Origin: a virus
DNA length: 27,385 bases
Reading direction: 5' to 3' (one strand)
Virus record (IMG/VR): IMGVR_UViG_3300009159_000255
Coordinates: 1 to 27,385 of that record
Below, piece after piece: positions 1 to 12,248 of this stretch (positions are counted from its first letter, which is position 1; each line of letters opens with the position of its first letter). The notes under the pieces were generated by a model. That model saw nothing but the letters and a program-made list of their open reading frames with translations. It did no database searches and was not told where the DNA came from. The position numbers and the translations under genes were made by a program.

Positions 1-462
1 AAGACGAACACTCTGCCCAATTGGATAACGACCGCCGGCCTTCTTATATGCTTCGAGTAGACTTTCCATGGCATCATAGCACATCTTAGCAAACATTTCA
101 CAGCCTACACCCGGTACAATACGTAGATCACAGATTGCCCCACGCTCATGTGGAACACCCCTTGTTATACCATCATATCCAATGTCATTCATCTTCTTAA
201 AGAACTTAATATGTGGATCATCAGCAGCAATTACAAGTGTATGATCGAACATAGATTCAGACCAATCTTTAAACTGCTTTAGGCCACCAAAGTCAAAGAC
301 CCAATTACGGTCATCTAGTGTTTCGCTTTCGAATACTAACTTAATACCGAGACTATATCCGTGTAGTGTACTGCAATGGCTATGTGTGGCACGCCACTGA
401 CGAAAGCAACAACTAAGCCCTCTGTCTGTGCCATATGTCTTAGTTGAATAATACTTGCTCAC
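1..462 (-). CDS. queD: 6-carboxy-tetrahydropterin synthase QueD (3' end beyond window)
   Basis: QueD converts 7,8-dihydroneopterin triphosphate to 6-carboxytetrahydropterin, the second step of preQ0/7-deazaguanine synthesis after FolE. The visible 154 residues run off the window edge without a stop. They show the family's zinc and active-site segment at about 27-36 (HSHC then LHGY, i.e. CxxxHGY with Tyr where many homologues have His), a VFDFGGLK segment at 55-62, and FDHTL at 72-76. GTG at 462 was chosen as the start because it overlaps the TGA of the upstream gene in a GTGA arrangement used repeatedly in this genome and keeps the N-terminus short. It sits in the operon folE - 69 aa - 106 aa - queD. 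Family identity is recognised from motifs; coupling to the dpdA gene further upstream is an inference. Confidence 0.9.
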   Translation of the reverse strand, partial: MSKYYSTKTYGTDRGLSCCFRQWRATHSHCSTLHGYSLGIKLVFESETLDDRNWVFDFGGLKQFKDWSESMFDHTLVIAADDPHIKFFKKMNDIGYDGITRGVPHERGAICDLRIVPGVGCEMFAKMCYDAMESLLEAYKKAGGRYPIGQSVRL

Positions 463-779: not shown

Positions 780-985
780 TGTTCAATCTCCGTAATTGTT
801 TTTCTTCCCATTGTGTGATTTACTCTTGCACGAATATGTGCGTTCTCCCACGTCCAACATTCTCCAGTATCATCTTGAAAACATACCCACTGAAGATCAT
901 GTTCCGGACCGTAATCAATAATAAAGTGTGCTAACGCACGACCTTTAGGAGTCATTAATGGAATTGGTGGATCTAATCTAGTCAC
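776..985 (-). CDS. Small conserved phage protein, 69 aa
   Basis: A 69-residue protein between folE and the 106-aa gene, overlapping both by 4 bases. It begins with GTG at 985, inside the GTGA overlap with the folE stop. The sequence has features I associate with a widespread small protein of marine T4-like phages: a PPIPLMTPKGRALAHF segment, IDYGPEHDLQWVCF, and DDTGECWTW followed by Asn and Arg. The mix of aromatic residues, one GEC motif and little charge clustering suggests a compact beta fold. No function is known to me. The tight overlap suggests translational coupling between folE and queD. Confidence 0.75.
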   Translation of the reverse strand: MTRLDPPIPLMTPKGRALAHFIIDYGPEHDLQWVCFQDDTGECWTWENAHIRARVNHTMGRKTITEIEQ

Positions 986-1665
986 CGAGCATATTCCTGT
1001 TGTAGCTTAATGTTGTCAAAGAATTCCTTCTTTGTGCCAGCATCTTCATTGAATGCACCCTTAAGCACTGTAGTTTGTGTTAGCGAACTATGTGCCATAA
1101 TGCCTCTGTTCTCACAACAGCCGTGAGTTGCCTGTATATAAACAGCAACATTTTCACTGCCAGTTGCCTTTTGAATCTCACGAGCAATATCATTGCACAG
1201 TTCTTCCTGCAATGTACCACGTCGAGCACACCACTGTGCAATACGTGTATACTTGCTAAGTCCAATCAACTTGGTAGCAGCAATGATACCAATGTATGCA
1301 ACGCCAGTTACTGGCTGATGATGATGACTACACATCGACTTTAGTTCACTACGAACAACAAGCATACCGGTATATGCATCATTTCCGTCATTCGGAAAAC
1401 TAGTTGCATCTGGCGCTGGATTATAACGCCCACTCATTACTTCATTGAAGTACATCTTAGCAAGACGCTTTGCTGTGCCTTTACTATTTGGATCAGTCTC
1501 ACGATCAATTACAAGAGCATCCAATACATGTTCAAATGCTTCAGTTGTTTCTTCAATTAACCTGTCATATTCATCAAAATAGATATATTGTGAGATGTTA
1601 TCTCCAGCCCAATAACGGCCCCCGTCAGATTTAATACGATTACGAATAGTTTCTGAAACGCTCAT
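982..1665 (-). CDS. folE: GTP cyclohydrolase I (FolE)
   Basis: FolE converts GTP to 7,8-dihydroneopterin triphosphate, the entry step shared by folate and 7-deazaguanine (queuosine/preQ0) synthesis. All key motifs are present in order: SMCSHHHQP with the zinc Cys and catalytic His region (about 110-118), IGLSKYTRI (134-142), RRGTLQEEL (148-156), and HGCCENRG (about 179-186) with the second zinc Cys pair. The 227-aa length fits the family with a modest C-terminal tail. The ATG at 1665 has a strong upstream AAGGAAAT about 6 bases away. A sigma70-like promoter lies at 1709-1737. It leads an operon ending in queD, so here the enzyme most likely feeds 7-deazaguanine base synthesis for DNA modification rather than folate; that purpose is inferred from context. 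Confidence 0.95.
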   Translation of the reverse strand: MSVSETIRNRIKSDGGRYWAGDNISQYIYFDEYDRLIEETTEAFEHVLDALVIDRETDPNSKGTAKRLAKMYFNEVMSGRYNPAPDATSFPNDGNDAYTGMLVVRSELKSMCSHHHQPVTGVAYIGIIAATKLIGLSKYTRIAQWCARRGTLQEELCNDIAREIQKATGSENVAVYIQATHGCCENRGIMAHSSLTQTTVLKGAFNEDAGTKKEFFDNIKLQQEYAR

Positions 1666-1708: not shown

Positions 1709-1737
1709 AATATACTTTATTTAGGCCTGTACTTCAA
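1709..1737 (-). promoter_or_regulatory. Sigma70-like promoter upstream of folE
   Basis: On the minus strand TTGAAG (1737-1732) is followed after exactly 17 bases by TATATT (1714-1709). Both boxes are close to the sigma70 consensus, with 4/6 and 5/6 matches. The -35 box overlaps the end of the sulfotransferase-like gene. Predicted transcription would begin near 1702, giving a leader of about 37 bases that contains the AAGGAAAT ribosome-binding site of folE. The same 17-base spacing and TATATTAA context recur in the promoter at 5570-5598. No start site has been mapped. Confidence 0.5.
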
Positions 1738-2372
1738 TATTTAAAATTCTGATCTGTAAAAATATCTGGATATTCGTTTTGATATTTTTTAAAGATAGCA
1801 TTACCTATGTTTTTAAGATTTTCTAGAGGTTCTAACTTATCCCATTTATTAAATGGTTGAGGTTTTGCGTTCATATTTAGTTTAAATCTTAAAGTAAATT
1901 TAATGTTTAAAATATTACATGCTTCTTCAATATTAATAACTTGGGGATAATTTAATACAATTGAAGTTTCCATTAGATCTTTAATGTTAACATACCAATT
2001 GCATATTTCTTTTACTTTAGTTGCAAAATATATTGGATTAATTACAAATTTTGTATCTTTATATTTGTTAACGTATTCTTCTACAGAAGTTGAATGAAAA
2101 TGATAAGTTCCTGTTTGTTCTGCTAACATAAAACTTGCTGCGATTTCAACTGGATTTCTAGTTATAATAATAGTTTTTCTTGATGGCAAATAAGATTCTA
2201 CTAATTCTCTATGGTGGGAATGTATTATATTTGATATATTTTCATCGAAAACAGTATCCTTATCGAGATGAATAAATTCAGAATTGCCAAAATGAAAAAT
2301 ACAATAGTTTTTAAGATAACTTGACAATTGTACACTACCGGCTCTGCCAGGACTTAATACAATAAAACTCAT
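1734..2372 (-). CDS. Sulfotransferase-like P-loop protein
   Basis: The 212-residue product looks like a PAPS-dependent sulfotransferase. The N-terminus (residues 3-20) has a beta strand followed by SPGRAGSVQLSSYL, a plausible 5'-phosphosulfate loop. Residues 67-80 (TIIITRNPVEIAAS) match the RxPxxxxxS 3'-phosphate-binding segment of sulfotransferases. The start ATG overlaps the TGA of the glycosyltransferase gene in an ATGA. Upstream in the same operon lies an APS-kinase-like enzyme that could supply PAPS. The acceptor is unknown and could be a glycan, a virion component or DNA. The gene seems more AT-rich than its operon partners, which hints at separate acquisition, though I did not compute this. 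A generic P-loop fold without sulfotransferase activity is the main alternative. Confidence 0.65.
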   Translation of the reverse strand: MSFIVLSPGRAGSVQLSSYLKNYCIFHFGNSEFIHLDKDTVFDENISNIIHSHHRELVESYLPSRKTIIITRNPVEIAASFMLAEQTGTYHFHSTSVEEYVNKYKDTKFVINPIYFATKVKEICNWYVNIKDLMETSIVLNYPQVINIEEACNILNIKFTLRFKLNMNAKPQPFNKWDKLEPLENLKNIGNAIFKKYQNEYPDIFTDQNFKY

Positions 2373-3448
2373 AGTGTATCTTTAATTACGTTGTATAGAT
2401 TATTTCCATTAAAGAAATTTCCAGTTGATGCATTATTTAAATTCTTTATAGTTCCAGGCAAGTCAGCATTATTACTACCCATTATATTACGAATTCTTTC
2501 CATTAAACGATTCTTATTACGCAGATAACTATCCCAATCTTTAGTCCAATCACTAGGATATTTAAAGAATGTGTCCCACATTTCATCATAACTTAAACGA
2601 TTTGGTACAAGTGGATATGTACCAACAATGGCACCTTCATATACTGAGATACCAAGAGTTTCTTGCAAATTAGCACTAAAAACAATCTTGCTCTCTGCTA
2701 GATGTGTGTGGTATTCGTGCTTGCTCAACTGATGGTCTTGTGCAACGAACCAATCGTATTCTGGCATTAATGCAGCAAGATCTCTGAAGATCTCCAATTG
2801 CTTCTCAGGAGCAAGACGATGGGGGAAAATAATCTTATCTTTCTTTACTGTATTGACATATGGCTCAAGTATATCATTTAGATATTCCATAGGCCAACCA
2901 ACAATATGAATCTTATCTGGATGCCATTCAATCATTGCATCACTTGAAGGTTCATCAAACAAATTAAGACAAAACATATCGAGATGGAATTTAGTAGCAA
3001 AGAAGTTGTGATCATAGCAATAGAACATACTAGATTCGGCATTGCGAACCCAGGGAGTATCGCCAATCAATCGTCCTAAGAAATCCTGGGGATCATAGGA
3101 TCCTGCATGCCACATTCCGCCTAGTTTAACTGGAATACCTAGCAATTCGCTCATATATTTCACTTGAATAACAGTTGGGTTCCACGCATCTGTATATAAG
3201 AAATAGTCTCCTGCTTTAACAGTTCCGTCTGCAAATAACTTAGAAATTTCAAGTAATTGCTGACTTTTGTAACTGTTAGTACCAGCAAAATTAAGGAACG
3301 CTCCGGGTGTTGTAGCCTGCGGAACATCGCCTCCACTAATAACAACTACACCCATGCCAGCAGACTTCATCTGCTCTGGAAGATACTGCTTCCATTGTGC
3401 GGTATAACGTGTTTCAACTGCTTCTAAATCAACTAGATAAACTGTCAT
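2369..3448 (-). CDS. GT-B family glycosyltransferase (GT4-like)
   Basis: A 359-residue protein with the layout of a GT-B glycosyltransferase. The C-terminal half carries FPHRLAPEKQ (208-217), AESKIVFSAN (251-260) and QETLGISVYEGAIVG (262-276). These match the nucleotide-sugar-binding region with the EGxxxG signature typical of GT4-like enzymes, followed by PLVPNRLSYDEMW. The N-terminal half starts MTVYLVDLE and has an acceptor-domain-like alternation of strands and helices. It lies between the 94-aa gene and the sulfotransferase-like gene, overlapping each by 4 bases. The sugar donor and acceptor cannot be read from the sequence; both DNA-base glycosylation and surface-glycan synthesis are possible. 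Confidence 0.8.
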   Translation of the reverse strand: MTVYLVDLEAVETRYTAQWKQYLPEQMKSAGMGVVVISGGDVPQATTPGAFLNFAGTNSYKSQQLLEISKLFADGTVKAGDYFLYTDAWNPTVIQVKYMSELLGIPVKLGGMWHAGSYDPQDFLGRLIGDTPWVRNAESSMFYCYDHNFFATKFHLDMFCLNLFDEPSSDAMIEWHPDKIHIVGWPMEYLNDILEPYVNTVKKDKIIFPHRLAPEKQLEIFRDLAALMPEYDWFVAQDHQLSKHEYHTHLAESKIVFSANLQETLGISVYEGAIVGTYPLVPNRLSYDEMWDTFFKYPSDWTKDWDSYLRNKNRLMERIRNIMGSNNADLPGTIKNLNNASTGNFFNGNNLYNVIKDTL

Positions 3449-3729
3449 GCTCGTTCCTTATAATAGTTACTGGACATCCATTGCATTAAACAGATAAGCC
3501 CTTGGCCTTCGTCTTTAAATTTTACTGTAATCATACGATAATCTTTGTACTCAGGATTAGCAATAATAACATAGTCTTCATACATCTTCAAATTTTCTCT
3601 TTGAAGTAATGCTTTTAATCCTGTTAAAGTAGCATTGCGATTGTGCCATTTACCTAAACTGGCATTGACCAATGGAAAATCAACTGCTTCCCAAGTTTCA
3701 CTTAACCATTTTTCAACGGTCCTACTCAC
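3445..3729 (-). CDS. Hypothetical protein, 94 aa, in sulfation/glycosylation operon
   Basis: Not recognised. The 94-residue protein begins with GTG at 3729 within a GTGA overlap with the upstream kinase/nucleotidyltransferase gene, and its TGA overlaps the ATG of the glycosyltransferase. It has an aromatic N-terminus (VEKWLSETWEAVDFP), a central helix with Lys/Arg, and a beta-rich stretch with DYVIIANPEYKDYRMITVKF. No metal-binding cluster, membrane segment or nucleotide-binding loop is seen. Its fixed place between the activation enzyme and the transferases makes an accessory or carrier role conceivable, but this is only positional. Confidence 0.7.
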   Translation of the reverse strand: MSRTVEKWLSETWEAVDFPLVNASLGKWHNRNATLTGLKALLQRENLKMYEDYVIIANPEYKDYRMITVKFKDEGQGLICLMQWMSSNYYKERA

Positions 3730-4511
3730 ATGCCCATTTCCTTACGTATATTAGTAGCACTAATCGAAGTTACCGATTCGTCAAAAGTTTCTTCGCCACT
3801 TGTATATCCAACACCTCTGCCCCAACCAATATGTACAATGTTTGGAACAACTTGTATCTCGTACTTGCCTTGATATAGAGGATCGAGATCTTTTCGGATA
3901 AATCGCTTTACTTGCTCAATCTCAAATGGATTACTACCCTGCCATCCTTGTACATCGCGCACTTGGATAATAACTTGTCCAGTACGCTCTAATAGACGCT
4001 TAAACAATGCACGATGCCCATCATGCCACGGTTGCCAACGTCCAAGCATTTGTACAGTTTCCTTTCGCCAATCAAATATTGGGCGGCGACGATTAGCACA
4101 GATATGATCCCAAATAAAAGCAGCCCATTTAATAGCATTCTGTTCCGGCACACGGAAATCATATAGATCAGGTTCGATAAATGCTTTGTTAGTATCTTCG
4201 TAGCGACCGCGATCAATGGTATCAACCCATATGATCCAATCTGCTTTGAAATTATTGCGCATCTCAACTAGTGGAGCAACAAAGTCAGCAATTACAAAAT
4301 CCATCGTGCTCTTATCTGCTAGTTCACGCATACGGATACTTTGACGTATACGTCCGCTGTCACTAAAGTCCCAATCATTGTATTGCTGGCGAACAGCATC
4401 AGCATTAAACCAATCTACAGTATAGAAATCTGTTTCCATACGCTTTTTAAGTTCTTGAGCAAGTGTAGTCTTTCCTGCTCCTGGTAGTCCCATAATTAAA
4501 ATCTTTTGCAT
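3726..4511 (-). CDS. APS-kinase-like P-loop kinase fused to HxGH nucleotidyltransferase
   Basis: A two-domain 261-residue enzyme. Residues 1-140 resemble APS kinase: Walker A GLPGAGKT (8-15), NADAVRQQYNDWDFSDSGRIRQSIR (split here as NADAVR at 36-41 and DWDFSDSGRIRQ at 46-57), and ADFVAPLVEMR at 75-85, the counterpart of the FISPYR region. Residues 152-261 form a small cytidylyl/adenylyltransferase with GRWQPWHDGH (157-166) and ISATNIRKE (250-258), the two signature sites of NMNAT/PPAT-type enzymes. By analogy with PAPS synthase, which also joins an APS kinase to an adenylyltransferase, it might activate sulfate; however, the second domain is closer to NMNAT-type than to classical ATP sulfurylase. 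It heads the operon that includes a glycosyltransferase and a sulfotransferase-like protein. The start has a good AAAGGAAAT ribosome-binding site. Confidence 0.8.
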   Translation of the reverse strand: MQKILIMGLPGAGKTTLAQELKKRMETDFYTVDWFNADAVRQQYNDWDFSDSGRIRQSIRMRELADKSTMDFVIADFVAPLVEMRNNFKADWIIWVDTIDRGRYEDTNKAFIEPDLYDFRVPEQNAIKWAAFIWDHICANRRRPIFDWRKETVQMLGRWQPWHDGHRALFKRLLERTGQVIIQVRDVQGWQGSNPFEIEQVKRFIRKDLDPLYQGKYEIQVVPNIVHIGWGRGVGYTSGEETFDESVTSISATNIRKEMGM

Positions 4512-5598: not shown

Positions 5599-7614
5599 TT
5601 AAAAGTTTATTCTAAGACCTATAGTTCCTGATACACCAGTTAGGTTAGAACTCTTATCTATACCAACTGAAGCATTTAGGAATATGCCTTTTTCAATTTC
5701 AGTGTTTGCTGTAGCACGGATGCTGCCAACAGTTTTGAAATCTTTGCTCTGTGTAACACGACCTTCAACACCAAAATTCTTATCAAAGTCATATCTCAAA
5801 CCAACATATGGATTGAAAGCAGTACTTGATTTTGCAGTTGGAATTGTTGAAAGGAATGGGCTACCACTTTCACTTATTCCGCTGATTGAACTGCTTACTA
5901 CAGTTACACCAACTAGTGGGCGGAAGTCATAGTATGTGTCTGCACTATAAACAGTTACATCGCCATATAGGATCTTTTGATTAAACTTAGCACTGTTTGA
6001 TAATGCAAAGATTGGGAGACTTGTAGTTCCGTTATACTTGCTATAACCAAATCCTACAGCAGTCTTAACCCAAACATCCTTGTCTTTGATGAAAGCGTAT
6101 GCAGTTGCATCATAACTATCGTTTTCAACTTTACTATTGCTTAAGCCACCGCTTTTAGCACTGCCATAACTAACAGCAACTCCAAACTTATTAGCATCAG
6201 CAGTCCATTGATAACCAGCAACTGTGCCGCCATTTGTCATAGTACCTACAGTCTTGTAGTAACTAGCAGTCGGACTAATCCAAGCACCATCATTCTTATT
6301 AATTGGATCAATTAGGAATGGATTAAATGAACGCAACTTAACAGCATTGGCGAATCCAGCATTGTTAAAAGTAGCATTGCTTGAACTTGTGCTACCTAGA
6401 CGCTGCTCACTTGGCTTAACAGTATCTTCATCATATACAGTACCATTAGTCTTCACAACAGTGCTATCACTCATGTCTTGATTAGTAACAGGAGTAACAG
6501 CAACTCTGCTAGTAACTGCCCTTGCATCATACTTGTCAATTGTGCGAGTAACAACGCCAGTTGTGGCAACATTTGTTCTTGCATCTGTTTGTACAATTGC
6601 AATCTGTGTCCATGCACCATAAACAAAGAATGGTGTGCCTTTAATATAAGTTAAGTATGGAGCACCGACTGGAGTTGGACCTGTAGGAACAACAGGAGTA
6701 ACACCGGGCATTGTACAATCTACTGTACACCCCGGGACAGTTCCTGGAATTCCGCCGCCTGCGCCAGAAGTAACAGCAGTAGTTCCTGCGGCTAATGTGC
6801 TTGGCCCAAAAATATAAGCATATTCAAAAGTTACTGATGCACCGGCAGCAAGTGTTGGTAGATAGAACCCAAGACCAATGGTATTATCACCATCGCCAAT
6901 GTTAGTTCCACTATAGTAAGTAACAGGATCTGTAGTCCACCCCGTAACGCCTGCACCTGCGTTAGTTGCAGCAGTATAAAGACCTAGTGCATACTTACTA
7001 ATTAGTGCTTCACTAAACACAACGTTCTTAACACCAATTGGACTAAAGCCCAAAGTGTTTGTAGTTGCTGAACTATCTCCTGTTGCTGCTCTTGCATCCG
7101 GATCTGTAAAACGACCAAAGTATAGATTAGTCATATTAACAGTTGTAGTAAGTTTTGTTTTGATATCTACAACTTTGTCGGGATTATTAAATCTAACATC
7201 GTTAGTTAATGAAAAGTCAGTTGTAGAACCAGTCCATACAACACGATTGTCAAATGTAGCACCACCATAAGCAATACCACTATAGTTTGTTAGAATGCCG
7301 CCAGTAATAGCAACAGCGCCAGTATTATTATTTGTTTTACTAGTAGTTACTCCAGCATCGTTAGTATATTTTACAGTAAAGCCTTCAAACGGACTTCCTG
7401 GTGTTAGATAATCGTATGCTGGGTTAAATGTTCTTGTTCCGGTATTATCATATAAGATACCTGGGGCAGTATTTCCTTTACTGCCAATAGTTCCATAATC
7501 ACTTGTGCCAATTTTAACATAGTCACCGGTTAATGTAAAAACCGTGCCAGTTGTTTGAGCATATGCAGAGGAAGCAAATAGAATTCCTACTGCTGCTAAC
7601 AGATTTTTAATCAC
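5599..7614 (-). CDS. Secreted autotransporter-like outer-membrane beta-barrel protein
   Basis: The 671-residue protein starts with a clear Sec signal peptide: a Lys, a hydrophobic core, and SAYA|Q with cleavage near residue 19-20. A Thr/Gly/Asn-rich beta passenger of about 260 residues follows, then a Gly/Pro-rich linker with two Cys (about 287-320). The C-terminal part of about 230 residues has alternating strands ending in GTIGLRINF, the terminal-Phe signature recognised by BAM. This fits an autotransporter or outer-membrane porin-like protein for a Gram-negative envelope. GTG at 7614 is preceded by GGAGA, and an ATAAATA element lies at 7677-7684. Phages use outer-membrane proteins to block rival phages or alter the surface (for example Lom of lambda); a virion adhesin is the alternative, but the signal peptide argues against that. 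It may have come from a host. Confidence 0.85.
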   Translation of the reverse strand: MIKNLLAAVGILFASSAYAQTTGTVFTLTGDYVKIGTSDYGTIGSKGNTAPGILYDNTGTRTFNPAYDYLTPGSPFEGFTVKYTNDAGVTTSKTNNNTGAVAITGGILTNYSGIAYGGATFDNRVVWTGSTTDFSLTNDVRFNNPDKVVDIKTKLTTTVNMTNLYFGRFTDPDARAATGDSSATTNTLGFSPIGVKNVVFSEALISKYALGLYTAATNAGAGVTGWTTDPVTYYSGTNIGDGDNTIGLGFYLPTLAAGASVTFEYAYIFGPSTLAAGTTAVTSGAGGGIPGTVPGCTVDCTMPGVTPVVPTGPTPVGAPYLTYIKGTPFFVYGAWTQIAIVQTDARTNVATTGVVTRTIDKYDARAVTSRVAVTPVTNQDMSDSTVVKTNGTVYDEDTVKPSEQRLGSTSSSNATFNNAGFANAVKLRSFNPFLIDPINKNDGAWISPTASYYKTVGTMTNGGTVAGYQWTADANKFGVAVSYGSAKSGGLSNSKVENDSYDATAYAFIKDKDVWVKTAVGFGYSKYNGTTSLPIFALSNSAKFNQKILYGDVTVYSADTYYDFRPLVGVTVVSSSISGISESGSPFLSTIPTAKSSTAFNPYVGLRYDFDKNFGVEGRVTQSKDFKTVGSIRATANTEIEKGIFLNASVGIDKSSNLTGVSGTIGLRINF

Positions 7615-8144: not shown

Positions 8145-8661
8145 TTACTTCGGTGTCTTTAGTATACTGATCCCAATATGTATACTTGTCTTTAGACATA
8201 AGATCATGTAGTTGATGTGTCCATACTCCTGGATTAGTAGCGCCCCAAGTACGGTCGTCTATCTTGATAGTGGTGTTATAGTTAAGCAGACTGATGTAAG
8301 GCAACTTTACGCTGAGCATTGGGACAAAGCGATCATGTTCGCAAAGCCCTGATTCCAGCAAGCCTTCTGCTTGTTTAACATCTAAATCCAAGGTGCACCA
8401 ATAACCTGTATCCAAGCAAGCCTTAATAACATCAGCCCATTTATTCCATTCATCAGCATCATTTACAGCAATATCTGGAAAACTTTGACTTGTGCCAAAA
8501 TAGATATGCTTTACAATATGTAATGATGCTTGCTCCAGAATCTCGTCAATAGGAGGTGTTCCCACAACAAATAATGTAAACATACCGTGACAGATAGTAT
8601 GCTCAACTTCATATCCGGTGAAATATACTACGTTCTGTCGTTCTTCTGTATTCAGTCCCAT
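8140..8661 (-). CDS. Conserved phage protein of unknown function, 173 aa
   Basis: I recall similar proteins in marine T4-like phages but know no function. Visible features are YEVEHTICHGMFTLFVVG (18-35), a HIYFGTSQSFPD stretch, an amphipathic helix around EWNKWADVIKACL, YWCTLDLDVKQAE (107-119), and a strongly conserved-looking C-terminal half with FVPMLSVKLPYI and TIKIDDRTWGATNPGVWTHQLHDL. The Asp/His content and the TLDLDV segment would suit an enzyme or a metal-binding fold, but no named motif is present. Its ATG overlaps the end of the alcohol-dehydrogenase-like gene by 10 bases, placing it in the dpdA operon and making a role in the same pathway plausible. Confidence 0.75.
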   Translation of the reverse strand: MGLNTEERQNVVYFTGYEVEHTICHGMFTLFVVGTPPIDEILEQASLHIVKHIYFGTSQSFPDIAVNDADEWNKWADVIKACLDTGYWCTLDLDVKQAEGLLESGLCEHDRFVPMLSVKLPYISLLNYNTTIKIDDRTWGATNPGVWTHQLHDLMSKDKYTYWDQYTKDTEVK

Positions 8662-9566
8662 ACTAAGTAGCCCCTACTGTATCCTGCCGAACGATTCGCA
8701 CCATCTTCAAAAGCCTGCTGCCATTCTGTATTGCGATTATAACCCCTAGTCCATAATCCGTCAACCTTCAATCCACAGTTTGTCATATATGTTACTGCTG
8801 TAGTCATTGCGGTATAGAATTCTTCATTACGAGGACTTGGACATATTATTGTACAATTCTTCCAAAGTAGATTAGCAAATGAAGTTGTAATTGCAGGATG
8901 CTTCTCTGCTGCCAGCACAACTATGGCGTTATTCTTCAGTACATCTTTTGTGAATACTGTATCATCCTGCTTGAGATCAATTACAACATCATACTGTCCT
9001 GTAGGCTCTTTGGATAGTTCAATGTGATCTTGCCAAAGATGTCGATTGCTATTTCCAACTACGGTAATTGCGCCGTCATATGAATGTATCAGCATAGTTT
9101 GAAACACAATCCAAGATAGGAAACCTGAACCTAGAATTAGCAAACGCTTGTTCTCAGTATTGTATGTAGGGAACCCTTCTGTGGCTACATTGATTCCACA
9201 AGCAATAGGTTCAATAATCCATTTTGGATCAAGTTCTGGAACAACTACAAACTCAAATCTGCCAGTATTGTAGTAATCGCTATATGCTGGTTCGCCACGA
9301 GTTGCTACAAAGTCGCCAACTTTTACAGGCTCTAACCCCTGTCGATTAACCTTTGAGCCAACCTTAGTAACAATGCCTAAGCCTTCGTGCCCCTGCATAT
9401 GAATAGGCAATGGACCAAAGTTACCCTGCATCATATCAATATCGCTGCGACAAATACCTGTCATTGCAGCCTTTACCTCAATCTCATTATCTGTAGGTTC
9501 AGGCTTATCCCATGACGTTTCTACAAATTTACCATCACCTGCTGTATAAAGAATTCTACTTCTCAT
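8652..9566 (-). CDS. Zinc-type alcohol dehydrogenase-like (MDR) oxidoreductase
   Basis: A 304-residue medium-chain dehydrogenase/reductase. GICRSDIDMM (37-46) carries the catalytic-zinc Cys39. MQGHEGLGIVTKVGSKV (57-73) carries the GHE zinc motif (His60, Glu61). KVGDFVATRG follows, and the cofactor domain has LLILGSGFLSW at about 151-161. The structural-zinc four-Cys loop of classical alcohol dehydrogenases is missing and the protein is shorter than the usual 340-350 residues. The substrate is unknown. It lies immediately after a Gfo/Idh/MocA-type dehydrogenase and downstream of dpdA, with an 11-base overlap, so the two probably act in one pathway, such as making a sugar or tailoring a modified base (inference). 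Confidence 0.85.
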   Translation of the reverse strand: MRSRILYTAGDGKFVETSWDKPEPTDNEIEVKAAMTGICRSDIDMMQGNFGPLPIHMQGHEGLGIVTKVGSKVNRQGLEPVKVGDFVATRGEPAYSDYYNTGRFEFVVVPELDPKWIIEPIACGINVATEGFPTYNTENKRLLILGSGFLSWIVFQTMLIHSYDGAITVVGNSNRHLWQDHIELSKEPTGQYDVVIDLKQDDTVFTKDVLKNNAIVVLAAEKHPAITTSFANLLWKNCTIICPSPRNEEFYTAMTTAVTYMTNCGLKVDGLWTRGYNRNTEWQQAFEDGANRSAGYSRGYLVWD

Positions 9567-10446
9567 CGTATGGCCCTAACATATTGTGTATCCAAAGATC
9601 CTGTTCCAGTTGATCTCGCCACCACACTGGATTACTGATGTTTTCGAATGCTGTTTCAATCATCTTCTTATATGCTGAAACAGGACATAGCCCAAGTTCA
9701 AACCGACGTTCCCTGTCGCCAATAAAAGCAATACTTTGATCATCTTGTTCTAAACTACGCCAATTAGCAGTTAGATTATAATGTACTTTTCCAACTCTTA
9801 ATTCAATATTAGCATAATCATCCACGTCGTATAGCCCATCAGGATTGACATTGCCGTATGTTGTATCTAATAGATCTACTAACTTCCACCGCTGTTCTTT
9901 TACAAACTTCAATACATTAGAGTCTTGATATATTGTGGGATTTAATACTGCAACCCAACTAAGCAAATGCGGCATTAGATCTCTGCTAACTCCACCGAAG
10001 CTATAATGACTATTAGTAAACCAACTACCTGGATTTGGTACGCGATTGTAATTGATCCAGTTAATGTTTACATTAGTACTGACATTATTCAACGCCTTAA
10101 AGAATACAAGTTCTTCACGATATTGATTGTTCTTTACCATGATAAACTTAGTTTCGGGACAAGAATCAACCATGATTTTCCAATCGTGTGCTGTCTTAAC
10201 TCCTGGCTTTTCAACAAACACAATTTTGCTATGCGCTGCAACAAAATAAGCAATTTGTTCATGTGTATGATTTGGCGTGCAGATAAAAGCAGCATCAAAT
10301 TTTGGATGAATATCCAATGCTAATCCTATACTTTTAAAGTCAGCAGCGCGATTACCTGTATCAACTGTAACAACTTCGTGTCCTAAATCTTGGAGAACTT
10401 CTTTATAAAGTTCTCCAATGCCCATTCCAATAATTAAACTTTTCAT
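9556..10446 (-). CDS. Gfo/Idh/MocA-family NAD(P)-dependent oxidoreductase
   Basis: A 296-residue protein with a Rossmann N-terminus: LIIGMGIGELY (4-14) as the dinucleotide loop, then DAAFICTPNHTHEQIAYFV (51-69) and IVFVEKPG (75-82), the family's hallmark EKP motif. YSFGGVSRDLMPHLLSWVA (148-166) corresponds to the GGxxxDxxxH region that holds substrate-contacting His in Gfo/Idh/MocA enzymes. The glycine loop is GMGIG rather than GxGxxG with a following Ala, a small variation. Members oxidise or reduce sugars and inositols. The gene begins 3 bases after the dpdA stop and overlaps the MDR gene, so the three are co-transcribed. The actual substrate cannot be deduced. Confidence 0.88.
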   Translation of the reverse strand: MKSLIIGMGIGELYKEVLQDLGHEVVTVDTGNRAADFKSIGLALDIHPKFDAAFICTPNHTHEQIAYFVAAHSKIVFVEKPGVKTAHDWKIMVDSCPETKFIMVKNNQYREELVFFKALNNVSTNVNINWINYNRVPNPGSWFTNSHYSFGGVSRDLMPHLLSWVAVLNPTIYQDSNVLKFVKEQRWKLVDLLDTTYGNVNPDGLYDVDDYANIELRVGKVHYNLTANWRSLEQDDQSIAFIGDRERRFELGLCPVSAYKKMIETAFENISNPVWWRDQLEQDLWIHNMLGPYDEK

Positions 10447-10449
10447 GTC

Positions 10450-11877
10450 TCACTCAAATAGTGCATTAAATTGTGTATTAGCGTTAATTGTCTTCTTACC
10501 AGTATAACCCCGTTGACCTATAATGTCAATCCAAAACTTATTATGTTCGTCAATAAGATCCAAACTGCGTTGGTTGCCGGCATTTTTAATAATTTCATCT
10601 ACAAGTTCACGGAATCTAATTCCCGTATTCTTGCGAATAAGCATGCCTGGTACAACACCCATATCGTACTGTTCATTAGCAGTAAGTACAGCATTGATAT
10701 GCATCCAAACATTATGTGCCATTTGGATAGCATAACTAAAACTATCCCAACTGGTTTTTCCTTCTTTACCTATTAGATTAAGATCGCCTGGAGCGTAGCA
10801 ACAGACGTCATTAACTGTCATATGTTTAGATATATGGCTATCCATAAAGGTAGGGATAATACCGTCACTGCGAGCCACATCTCCATATAGCCTAGTGTCC
10901 GTTGCATATTTCTTGTTGTCGATGCCGGCTTCCATGCCGTAGGTCCATTTTTTGCCATGCTCTATCCTTAGTTGATCATAAACAAGACCTTTAGCATTAG
11001 CCATGAATGGACTTGCACAATCAAAACTAATAGTAAAGTTCTCATTATGGTATTTACGAACAGAACGCTGAATATCAGTTAGCAGTGTAGCCCACTCTAA
11101 CTTACTTGTTCCAAGAAAATGCATCCAATCGTGTGTGCCTTTTTCAAGTAATCCATCACGAATCATTTGTACAATACGACGTAGCACAAGATGAATGTCA
11201 CACATATTCTGACCGCCCATAGCCCACCCATTGAAGTGTGTTTGGGGATACAGTTTTGGATCATTGAAGTCCTTCATTTGATTATACCAATCATCTGCTT
11301 CAGTGTGATTCTCACCCTGTAGCACGTTAAGGAACTTACACTTGCCTGTACGATGCTTCATCCAGTATTCGTTATTGATACGAGTACCTTTTACTGCTTC
11401 CGCGTAAGTACTAATGCCAGTGGCAGCAGCACCAGCAGGACTGCGAGCAACCCAAGCGGGAATATCAAGCACCATACCATAATCCATATAAGCGTCCATC
11501 CAACGCAGAACACCGTCACGCTTAGAATGTGCCTTAGGGCAATTAGGATCTCGCCAATCGCCTGCCCATACTCCCTTACCAATTTGGAATCCACCACTAT
11601 CCCCCAATACAAAACTATTTGGATTACGATTTCGAACCATTTCTTCTTTTTCGTCTGGCCCGACTTCTAGAATTGCGTGACCAGCAGAATACAGACACCA
11701 AGGATAATAAAAGTAACTAATATCCGGATCAAGAAAATCGAGGCCTCTAATACCATTTTGCATTGCTGCTGGTACACGACTTGCTTTCATCTTCTTTCCA
11801 TACTTGCAAATTTGGAAAGTATAAAAACTACTCAGTGCTGGTAAGAATACTGCGTAATCTTTCTGTCTTAGAGACAT
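10450..11877 (-). CDS. dpdA: DpdA-like 7-deazaguanine DNA transglycosylase
   Basis: The 475-residue protein is a tRNA-guanine-transglycosylase relative of the DpdA type, which exchanges guanine in DNA for a 7-deazaguanine. TGT landmarks appear in order: LGDSGGFQIG (91-100) with the base-binding Asp93, FLNVLQGEN (182-190), FNGWAMGG (215-222) and TISFDCASPF (282-291) with the putative nucleophile Asp286. The classical TGT C-terminal zinc site (CxCxxC...H) is not apparent, only Cys359-Cys360, which separates it from cellular TGT. ATG 11877 has AGGA 4 bases upstream; a TTG at 11895 overlapping the previous stop as TTGA also has GAAGGA, so 6 extra residues are possible. It follows gp43 and gp45 and leads into two oxidoreductases. 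folE and queD elsewhere in the window support the role. Confidence 0.9.
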   Translation of the reverse strand: MSLRQKDYAVFLPALSSFYTFQICKYGKKMKASRVPAAMQNGIRGLDFLDPDISYFYYPWCLYSAGHAILEVGPDEKEEMVRNRNPNSFVLGDSGGFQIGKGVWAGDWRDPNCPKAHSKRDGVLRWMDAYMDYGMVLDIPAWVARSPAGAAATGISTYAEAVKGTRINNEYWMKHRTGKCKFLNVLQGENHTEADDWYNQMKDFNDPKLYPQTHFNGWAMGGQNMCDIHLVLRRIVQMIRDGLLEKGTHDWMHFLGTSKLEWATLLTDIQRSVRKYHNENFTISFDCASPFMANAKGLVYDQLRIEHGKKWTYGMEAGIDNKKYATDTRLYGDVARSDGIIPTFMDSHISKHMTVNDVCCYAPGDLNLIGKEGKTSWDSFSYAIQMAHNVWMHINAVLTANEQYDMGVVPGMLIRKNTGIRFRELVDEIIKNAGNQRSLDLIDEHNKFWIDIIGQRGYTGKKTINANTQFNALFE

Positions 11878-11891
11878 ATTATCCTGGGGTA

Positions 11892-12248
11892 TCAAATATA
11901 CATTCCTTCTTCGCCTATTTTATCCATATCTTCTTCGTTTATTTTATCAGTCGGAGAGTTTGACTCAGTCATTGCAGCAGATGCATAACTATGAAATGAT
12001 TTAGACCTATCGCCTTTGCCGTTTATCTTCTTTCCACATTCTTTACATTCCCAAAAATAAGTTTTACTTACGATTGGTTGATACCCATTCCATTTTGGCG
12101 TCCTTGTTATTTCATGTGAACTTGGAGCAAACTTATTTAGACATTGGTTGAAGGAACAAACAATTTGCTCCTCCTCAACCAATCTAATAAATCTAATATC
12201 ATTTTTTAATGGTTTAAGTTGATATTCTTTCTTTTCTTTTTTAGGCAT
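11892..12248 (-). CDS. Small zinc-ribbon-like protein between clamp and dpdA
   Basis: A 118-residue protein starting MPKKEKKEYQ at ATG 12248, which is right after the clamp stop; an earlier in-frame ATG at 12329 would overlap the clamp and is rejected. Four cysteines form two pairs, C31 and C36, then C68 and C71 (WECKECGKK), consistent with a zinc ribbon. The N-terminus is very basic and the C-terminus acidic. No homology is recognised. Its end overlaps the alternative TTG start of dpdA, so it is probably translated with dpdA. A nucleic-acid-binding or replication-accessory function is possible. T4 gp33/gp55-type late factors act with the clamp, but I see no specific similarity to them. Confidence 0.7.
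   Translation of the reverse strand: MPKKEKKEYQLKPLKNDIRFIRLVEEEQIVCSFNQCLNKFAPSSHEITRTPKWNGYQPIVSKTYFWECKECGKKINGKGDRSKSFHSYASAAMTESNSPTDKINEEDMDKIGEEGMYI

Follow-up and report, generated by a model that had tools for sequence, protein, structure and literature searches.

Among the closest described counterparts of the system considered here is the animal 3′-phosphoadenosine 5′-phosphosulfate (PAPS) synthetase (PAPSS1/2), in which an adenosine 5′-phosphosulfate (APS) kinase domain is joined to a large ATP sulfurylase (Sat) domain. In freshwater phages, 62 cysC and 167 cysH genes have been reported and interpreted as serving assimilatory sulfate reduction (PMC10914622, in the part consulted), and phage NadR and NadM have been described in PMC9503650 and PMC7824862 (likewise in the parts consulted). 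Here, we analyzed a 27,385-base viral fragment, IMGVR_UViG_3300009159_000255 (hereafter, the window), which carries KN, a gene for a fusion of an N-terminal P-loop kinase domain (K) with a C-terminal HxGH nucleotidyltransferase domain (N), and ST, a nearby gene whose product has a predicted sulfotransferase fold (Table 1). We consider it likely that KN is a minimal bifunctional PAPS synthetase, that ST spends the PAPS, and that KN and ST together form an optional phage cassette.

KN has the same domain order as PAPSS1/2 and, if this reading is right, the same overall reaction, but it differs in that N comprises ~110 aa instead of a large Sat domain and that K is without the canonical lid segment. 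From gene content, the folds predicted for K and ST, and genomic linkage, we infer the reactions, their directions, and the acceptor as follows: N would convert sulfate and ATP into APS and pyrophosphate (PPi), K would convert APS and ATP into PAPS and ADP, and ST would move the sulfuryl group from PAPS onto an acceptor (a glycan, a glycosylated base, or a small molecule). By description only, KN is probably the same sort of gene as the phage cysC auxiliary genes, which would then bear a kinase-only name; the consulted part of PMC10914622 mentions neither a nucleotidyltransferase half nor sulfotransferase partners. A search of the open-access literature, with subscription papers and preprints outside its scope, returned no description of the KN fusion and none that assigns sulfurylase activity to N. 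The first-pass annotation of the window, made from the sequence alone, was aware of no described phage pathway of this kind; within that literature this holds for the fusion, but not for cysC, which has been reported in phages (PMC10914622, in the part consulted).

Kinase and nucleotidyltransferase domains of KN

KN scored 36.5 bits against Pfam APS_kinase (PF01583; cut-off, 21.1) over residues 4–89 and matched phrog_10255, annotated as ‘kinase’, at 2.9e-48, while a relative of KN from Rhizobium (locus L212) reached 55.1 bits (1.2e-14) against the same Pfam family. The predicted model of KN had a mean predicted local distance difference test (pLDDT) score of 90.4, and APS kinases were its best rows in Foldseek. 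In VIA-align, each of rows 1 to 30 was an APS kinase or an enzyme with an APS kinase domain (Z, 16.0 to 19.1), followed by a gluconate kinase (Z, 14.7); the APS kinase domain of PAPSS proved structurally close to K (2ofw and 2pey; Z, 18.6 to 18.7), and isolated APS kinase domains aligned with K over 128 to 142 residues with a root-mean-square deviation (rmsd) of 1.7 to 2.8. Three of the 30 rows (1x6v, 1xjq, and 1xnj; human PAPS synthetase) were forced two-domain alignments (rmsd, 17 to 20) that are uninformative on N, and the list was filled by the kinase, with no row for N alone. On this model, K has an APS-kinase fold.

When six K domains were aligned with six kinases from KN genomes (four of these divergent), the P-loop, the Asp and Arg of DGD-R, and the next Arg were conserved. 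Three features count against the assignment: DGD reads NAD or NGD in K (NAD-R for DGD-R), the lid segment (GLYKKA/FTGID in canonical enzymes) is gapped out in all six K domains, and K scored only 32.0 bits against the NCBIfam apsK equivalog (TIGR00455), below its cut-off of 138.7. Given an APS-kinase fold with the P-loop, Asp, and Arg kept and the lid missing, we therefore read K as a divergent, APS-kinase-like enzyme, which would work like an APS kinase while standing below the strict NCBIfam cut-off.

N carries the GRFQP-H-GH motif of NadM (GRWQPWHDGH in KN, with G-R-Q-P-H-G-H invariant), and the residues invariant over 30 N domains include G-R-QP-H-GH, R41, N80, GR-VG, and S-T--R. These residues point to an HxGH nucleotidyltransferase whose sequence alone does not reveal its substrate. 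N has an HxGH-type motif and an IS-T-IR motif in common with Sat (PF01747)/CysDN, whose reaction is the one proposed for it; Sat also has Arg at two similar places, which counts as no test of N. Unlike Sat, KN had no PF01747 match among the best 25 of 35 Pfam families, and a profile of N aligned with five SAR11 Sat proteins at an hhalign probability of 4%, with only the IS(G/A)T-IR motif aligned. This speaks against a sulfurylase, as does the fact that, among proteins of known structure, N is closest in sequence to the NadM-type nicotinamide mononucleotide (NMN) adenylyltransferases (1.7e-7). The GR-QP-H-GH and NPF motifs are common to N and NadM, its best sequence match, but the alignment is good only over the first half, beyond which N instead carries a short invariant stretch, GR-VGY ... 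IS-T--R.

With NMN adenylyltransferases (NMNATs) as the nearest solved relatives of N, KN could alternatively serve NadR-like salvage, in which K would act as a kinase on nicotinamide riboside and N would turn NMN into NAD by adenylation, for example to counter an NAD-depleting defense. A phage NadR with a HIGH domain and a P-loop kinase has been described (PMC9503650 and PMC7824862, in the parts consulted); NadR, however, has the domain order NMNAT–kinase, whereas KN is kinase-first and without a helix-turn-helix domain. KN did match the NCBIfam model arch_NMN_Atrans (TIGR01527), but at 25.1 bits, far below the cut-off of 181.2, and K best matches APS kinase folds. The best fact on the NAD side, and one that tells against sulfate activation, is a NADAR-type gene (labeled after the Bhz60 record) that shares 8 bp with the KN start in the three Casjensviridae phages Bhz60 (L113), Clavibacter 33 (L114), and Suzuki (L083) and would fit NAD metabolism; a search for NADAR relatives in all open reading frames (ORFs) of the collected loci listed none.

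Distribution of KN and genomic links of N

In the parts consulted, SAR11 aprAB is reported to be under strong purifying selection, with sulfate pathways incomplete (PMC12636525), and Pelagibacter AprBA is covered (PMC2211403). Among 147 genomes of one SAR11 family, drawn by tool, N was found in 82, aprA above the cut-off in 66, and both in 59 (Fisher, 2.5e-14), while Sat was found in only 5; 56 of the 63 aprA genomes without Sat have N. Co-occurrence with aprA, like that with cysQ (see below), follows descent within clades, and the Fisher value therefore implies more independence than there is, which weakens the case for a functional link. In 31 of the 59 genomes, N and aprA were no more than 10 kb apart, usually 1.8 to 4.3 kb; here too, the gene orders are inherited, and the 31 loci are not independent events. 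K stood next to N in 13 of these loci. In the remaining 18, no K (E ≤ 1e-6) was found within the retrieved 6 to 10 kb, and the order was TenA-like/N/aprM-like/aprB/aprA, with N directly upstream of the aprM-like gene (the names aprM and TenA are our own reading). Ten other N loci of the family comprised five with and five without K; L286, a further KN locus, comes from another group and is outside those ten. Because the metabolite common to N and AprBA in loci without K is APS, N itself, and not only K, is tied to APS; this is the observation that carries most weight in our reading.

Gene content was compared across 50 KN genomes, hand-picked from 80 and partly single-cell, which come with no completeness figures and in which absences may be assembly gaps; single gene absences mean little here, and the overall pattern means more. 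Sat and CysD rarely share a genome with KN (5 and 3 of the 50, respectively, never both), and 42 genomes had neither. Of these 42, 38 were also without another APS kinase above 60 bits, and 27 had a Sulfotransfer_3 protein above the cut-off. Four of the 50 genomes had a Sulfotransfer_3 gene no more than 5 kb from KN, versus ~0.6 expected at random (69 sulfotransferase places). cysQ, whose product removes the 3′-phosphoadenosine 5′-phosphate left over from sulfotransfer, was the direct neighbor of K-N in eight of the 50 genomes, which belong to a single clade, and was located at −1 or −2 in 16 of 80 cellular loci. In Rhizobium BK376 (L212), a single 555-aa protein combines a sulfotransferase with K and N, its Sulfotransfer_2 score (31.3 bits) being above the Pfam cut-off. 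NadD was present in 41 of the 50 genomes at E ≤ 0.001 (32 above the cut-off); NMNAT is therefore not missing, which lowers the NAD reading, and N alone sits in apr loci. Overall, we regard NadR-like salvage as unlikely.

Harder to reconcile with sulfate activation are the many SAR11 genomes in which K-N stands among GcvT-like, M24, and Rieske genes without an obvious sulfation role. An M24 peptidase-like gene occupied position −1 of K-N in 27 of the 80 cellular loci. As a separate observation, K-N clustered in ~27 SAR11 loci (including L246 and L259) with an M24 peptidase-like gene, a methyltransferase gene, and a gene for a GcvT-like protein of 801 aa, an arrangement for which sulfation offers no explanation.

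In our view, N is probably a compact ATP sulfurylase with no detectable sequence relationship to Sat or CysDN, a predicted activity, and the SAR11 N on its own probably works beside AprBA in the direction from APS to sulfate. We further think it fairly probable that N represents a third, previously unrecognized kind of ATP sulfurylase (~110–130 aa, with a NadM-like HxGH core), which in SAR11 and other marine bacteria would finish sulfite oxidation alone with AprBA and, either paired with K or fused to it, would yield PAPS for sulfation; phages would have acquired the K-N fusion and combined it with sulfotransferases. Alternatively, K could be an APS kinase while the substrate of N is a different sulfur-linked compound (for example, N might degrade APS in an ADP-forming reaction, APS + Pi → ADP + sulfate) or N adenylates another oxyanion, the phage host supplying APS. 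Such a role would accommodate the presence of N in apr loci despite its lack of detectable Sat similarity, and ADP-forming activity occurs in sulfur oxidizers; HxGH enzymes as a class, however, use NTP and release PPi, and most KN genomes are without another ATP sulfurylase to feed K with APS, which makes this option quite unlikely. The APS-kinase fold of K and the links of N to APS reductase, CysQ, and sulfotransferases instead favor sulfate activation by the fusion, as the first-pass annotation had proposed; that reading is probably correct, and the grounds for it are now stronger than those given there.

KN is not a phage curiosity, since a scan of 84,980 bacterial and archaeal species genomes gave at least 570 confirmed stretches among at least 596 listed. 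Judged by their titles, the 80 cellular loci kept are mostly from SAR11, with SAR86, SAR116, other alphaproteobacteria, and Rhizobium, and the bacterial homologues are chromosomal. In many bacteria, two adjoining genes encode K and N: by our own ORF calls, the 80 loci comprised 18 with one ORF, 44 with two adjoining ORFs, and 18 undecided, including one (L230) in which K is present and masked by an antisense ORF. In two genomes of the SAR11 family (G090 and G087), N-like matches lie within open frames of 1796 and 465 aa, respectively, possibly further fusions. Viral contigs contained at least 600 stretches matching KN (600/600 confirmed by tblastn), and a second, alignment-based scan also gave at least 600 (590/600 confirmed); 80 were kept. 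The KN of phage Suzuki, used as a query, returned no relatives from the scan of viral contigs, and only 5 of 50,697 GenBank phage records contained KN matches.

ST and the phage gene neighborhood

ST fell below every Pfam cut-off (Sulfotransfer_1, 14.2 bits versus 22), and its assignment is due to the predicted fold. The AlphaFold model, built from three sequences, had a best mean pLDDT of 75.5 (other four models, 57 to 39), with weak stretches at residues 23–42 and 164–169. The best Foldseek match was SULT2A1 (9e-4), and the top 50 VIA-align rows were all sulfotransferases (Z, 9.6 to 10.9) over 163 to 190 of the 212 residues. ST has its fold, loop, and RNP motif in common with SULT, Stf0, and Sulfotransfer_3 proteins but, unlike them, passes no Pfam cut-off and belongs to a small family: a first scan of viral contigs gave no relatives, and only two have been found there (49% and 31% identity), each after GT and on a KN contig. 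Compared with six other Stf-type KN-neighbor proteins, the ST profile reached 60% probability over 95 columns; compared with PDB sequences, it matched no sulfotransferase, a point on the negative side. The first-pass annotation had called the protein sulfotransferase-like and held that a predicted structure lacking the PAPS pocket would refute the reading; modeled without ligand, the protein has a sulfotransferase fold, which did not refute it, and on this model, we take ST as a putative sulfotransferase.

Also unfavorable to a general pairing of KN with sulfotransfer in phages, only 7 of 158 viral loci had a sulfotransferase-like gene as an immediate neighbor (±1) of KN (counted by phmmer with seeds mainly from near KN, which biases the count), and only 2 of 6 tested sulfotransferase-like neighbors reached E < 0.001 in Pfam. 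An earlier regular-expression search missed known sulfotransferases and matched three TctC-like proteins. In a Pfam tally that set 75 neighbor families of KN against 75 distant ones, Sulfotransfer_3 appeared in 2 of the neighbor families (among the first 25 families of each list). Across 82 viral KN loci, a 67-aa membrane protein, which we take to be DUF2061-like, was encoded at +1 in 15 and in 18 in all; no other conserved phage partner gene of KN was found in these loci.

GT, read as a GT-B glycosyltransferase in the first-pass annotation, reached a weak 12.5 bits against Pfam Glycos_transf_1 (cut-off, 26.4); two GenBank relatives are annotated as glycosyltransferases, and we treat the assignment as putative. 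We judged 20 GT contigs (the window and 19 records; two more, ending at GT or SM94, were left out) and found KN in 5, whereas it was absent from the record in 15, so GT and SM94 belong to a block that is usually without KN and ST. In two jumbo phages, Phosso and PAC2, GT is flanked by the sliding clamp on one side and by FolE or QueE on the other, which places it in a block around 7-deazaguanine genes. Within the collected loci, an ST-like gene was present in 4 of the 5 KN-bearing (the window, L002, and L087, plus L003 with a different, Stf-like gene) versus 0 of the 15 KN-less GT contigs (Fisher, 0.001, a value resting on related contigs, biased seeds, and fragments). KN and ST have the appearance of a cassette that joined a conserved jumbo-phage block comprising GT, FolE, and QueD; FolE and QueD are part of that block and not of a sulfation module. 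We do not take a dedicated four-gene sulfoglycosylation operon, the single pathway proposed at first, as established, because GT and SM94 are also present where KN and ST are missing.

These counts also bear on a further alternative, in which K and N make a nucleotide-activated alcohol or sugar that is used by GT, the sulfotransferase neighbor being incidental. Kinase and HxGH pairs commonly yield such products, GT lies two genes downstream of KN, and polysaccharide-type genes surround KN in some loci; set against the 15 of 20 GT records without KN, the sulfotransferase-K-N triple fusion of L212, and the link of N to aprMBA without K, this possibility seems very unlikely.

Gene layout of the window and wider meaning

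Table 1. Positions of the genes discussed (in the window unless another locus is named)
Feature	Position	Strand	Description
KN	3726..4511	−	261 aa, ATG start; kinase, residues 1–142, and N, about residues 150–261
SM94	3445..3729	−	94 aa, GTG start; small protein beside GT with and without KN
GT	2369..3448	−	359 aa; putative GT-B glycosyltransferase, beside FolE in jumbo phages
ST	1734..2372	−	212 aa; predicted sulfotransferase-fold protein, SPGR(A/C)xS loop, RNPxEIA(A/L)S motif
FolE, GTP cyclohydrolase I	982..1665	−	Directly downstream of ST; conserved block (Pfam/PHROGs)
QueD-like 6-pyruvoyl-tetrahydropterin synthase	1..462	−	Runs off the window; conserved block
Stand-alone N, SAR11 apr loci L287–L316	e.g., L285:2206-2586		Upstream of aprM-like, aprB, and aprA

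ORF analysis confirmed the 4-base overlap described at first between each adjacent pair (KN/SM94, SM94/GT, and GT/ST), and the reported motifs are all present: the P-loop GLPGAGKT, FVAPLVEMR, and the HxGH motif in KN and RNPVEIAAS in ST. Because other IMG/VR contigs contain relatives of equal length and in the same order (95% identity for KN, 80% for SM94, 89–92% for GT, and the two ST values given above), these four are true genes and not chance ORFs. Downstream of ST, the − strand continues with FolE, two small genes, and QueD, and the DNA polymerase of the window is closest to those of the jumbo phages Phosso and Atu_ph07. A DpdA-like protein (10450-11895, − strand) carries DSGGFQ, which we take to be a DpdA motif; together with FolE and QueD, it likely reflects 7-deazaguanine DNA modification.

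Three further observations concern the − strand of the window. A 1185-aa protein (20986-24543) has PHROGs matches to cytidyltransferase, ParB-like, and deoxyribonucleotidase families. A 671-aa protein (5599-7614), with a signal-peptide-like start, an outer-membrane look, and relatives in 12 loci, had no match in PHROG or Pfam. Two adjoining dehydrogenase-like genes (8652-10446; ADH_N and GFO_IDH_MocA) are unusual near replication genes.

The wider point of the finding is the N family. SAR11 bacteria are among the most abundant in the sea, and the step that is missing beside their APS reductase would be filled by N if it has ATP sulfurylase activity. If the proposal is true, phage genes called cysC may be whole PAPS synthetases that serve sulfation, not sulfur assimilation.

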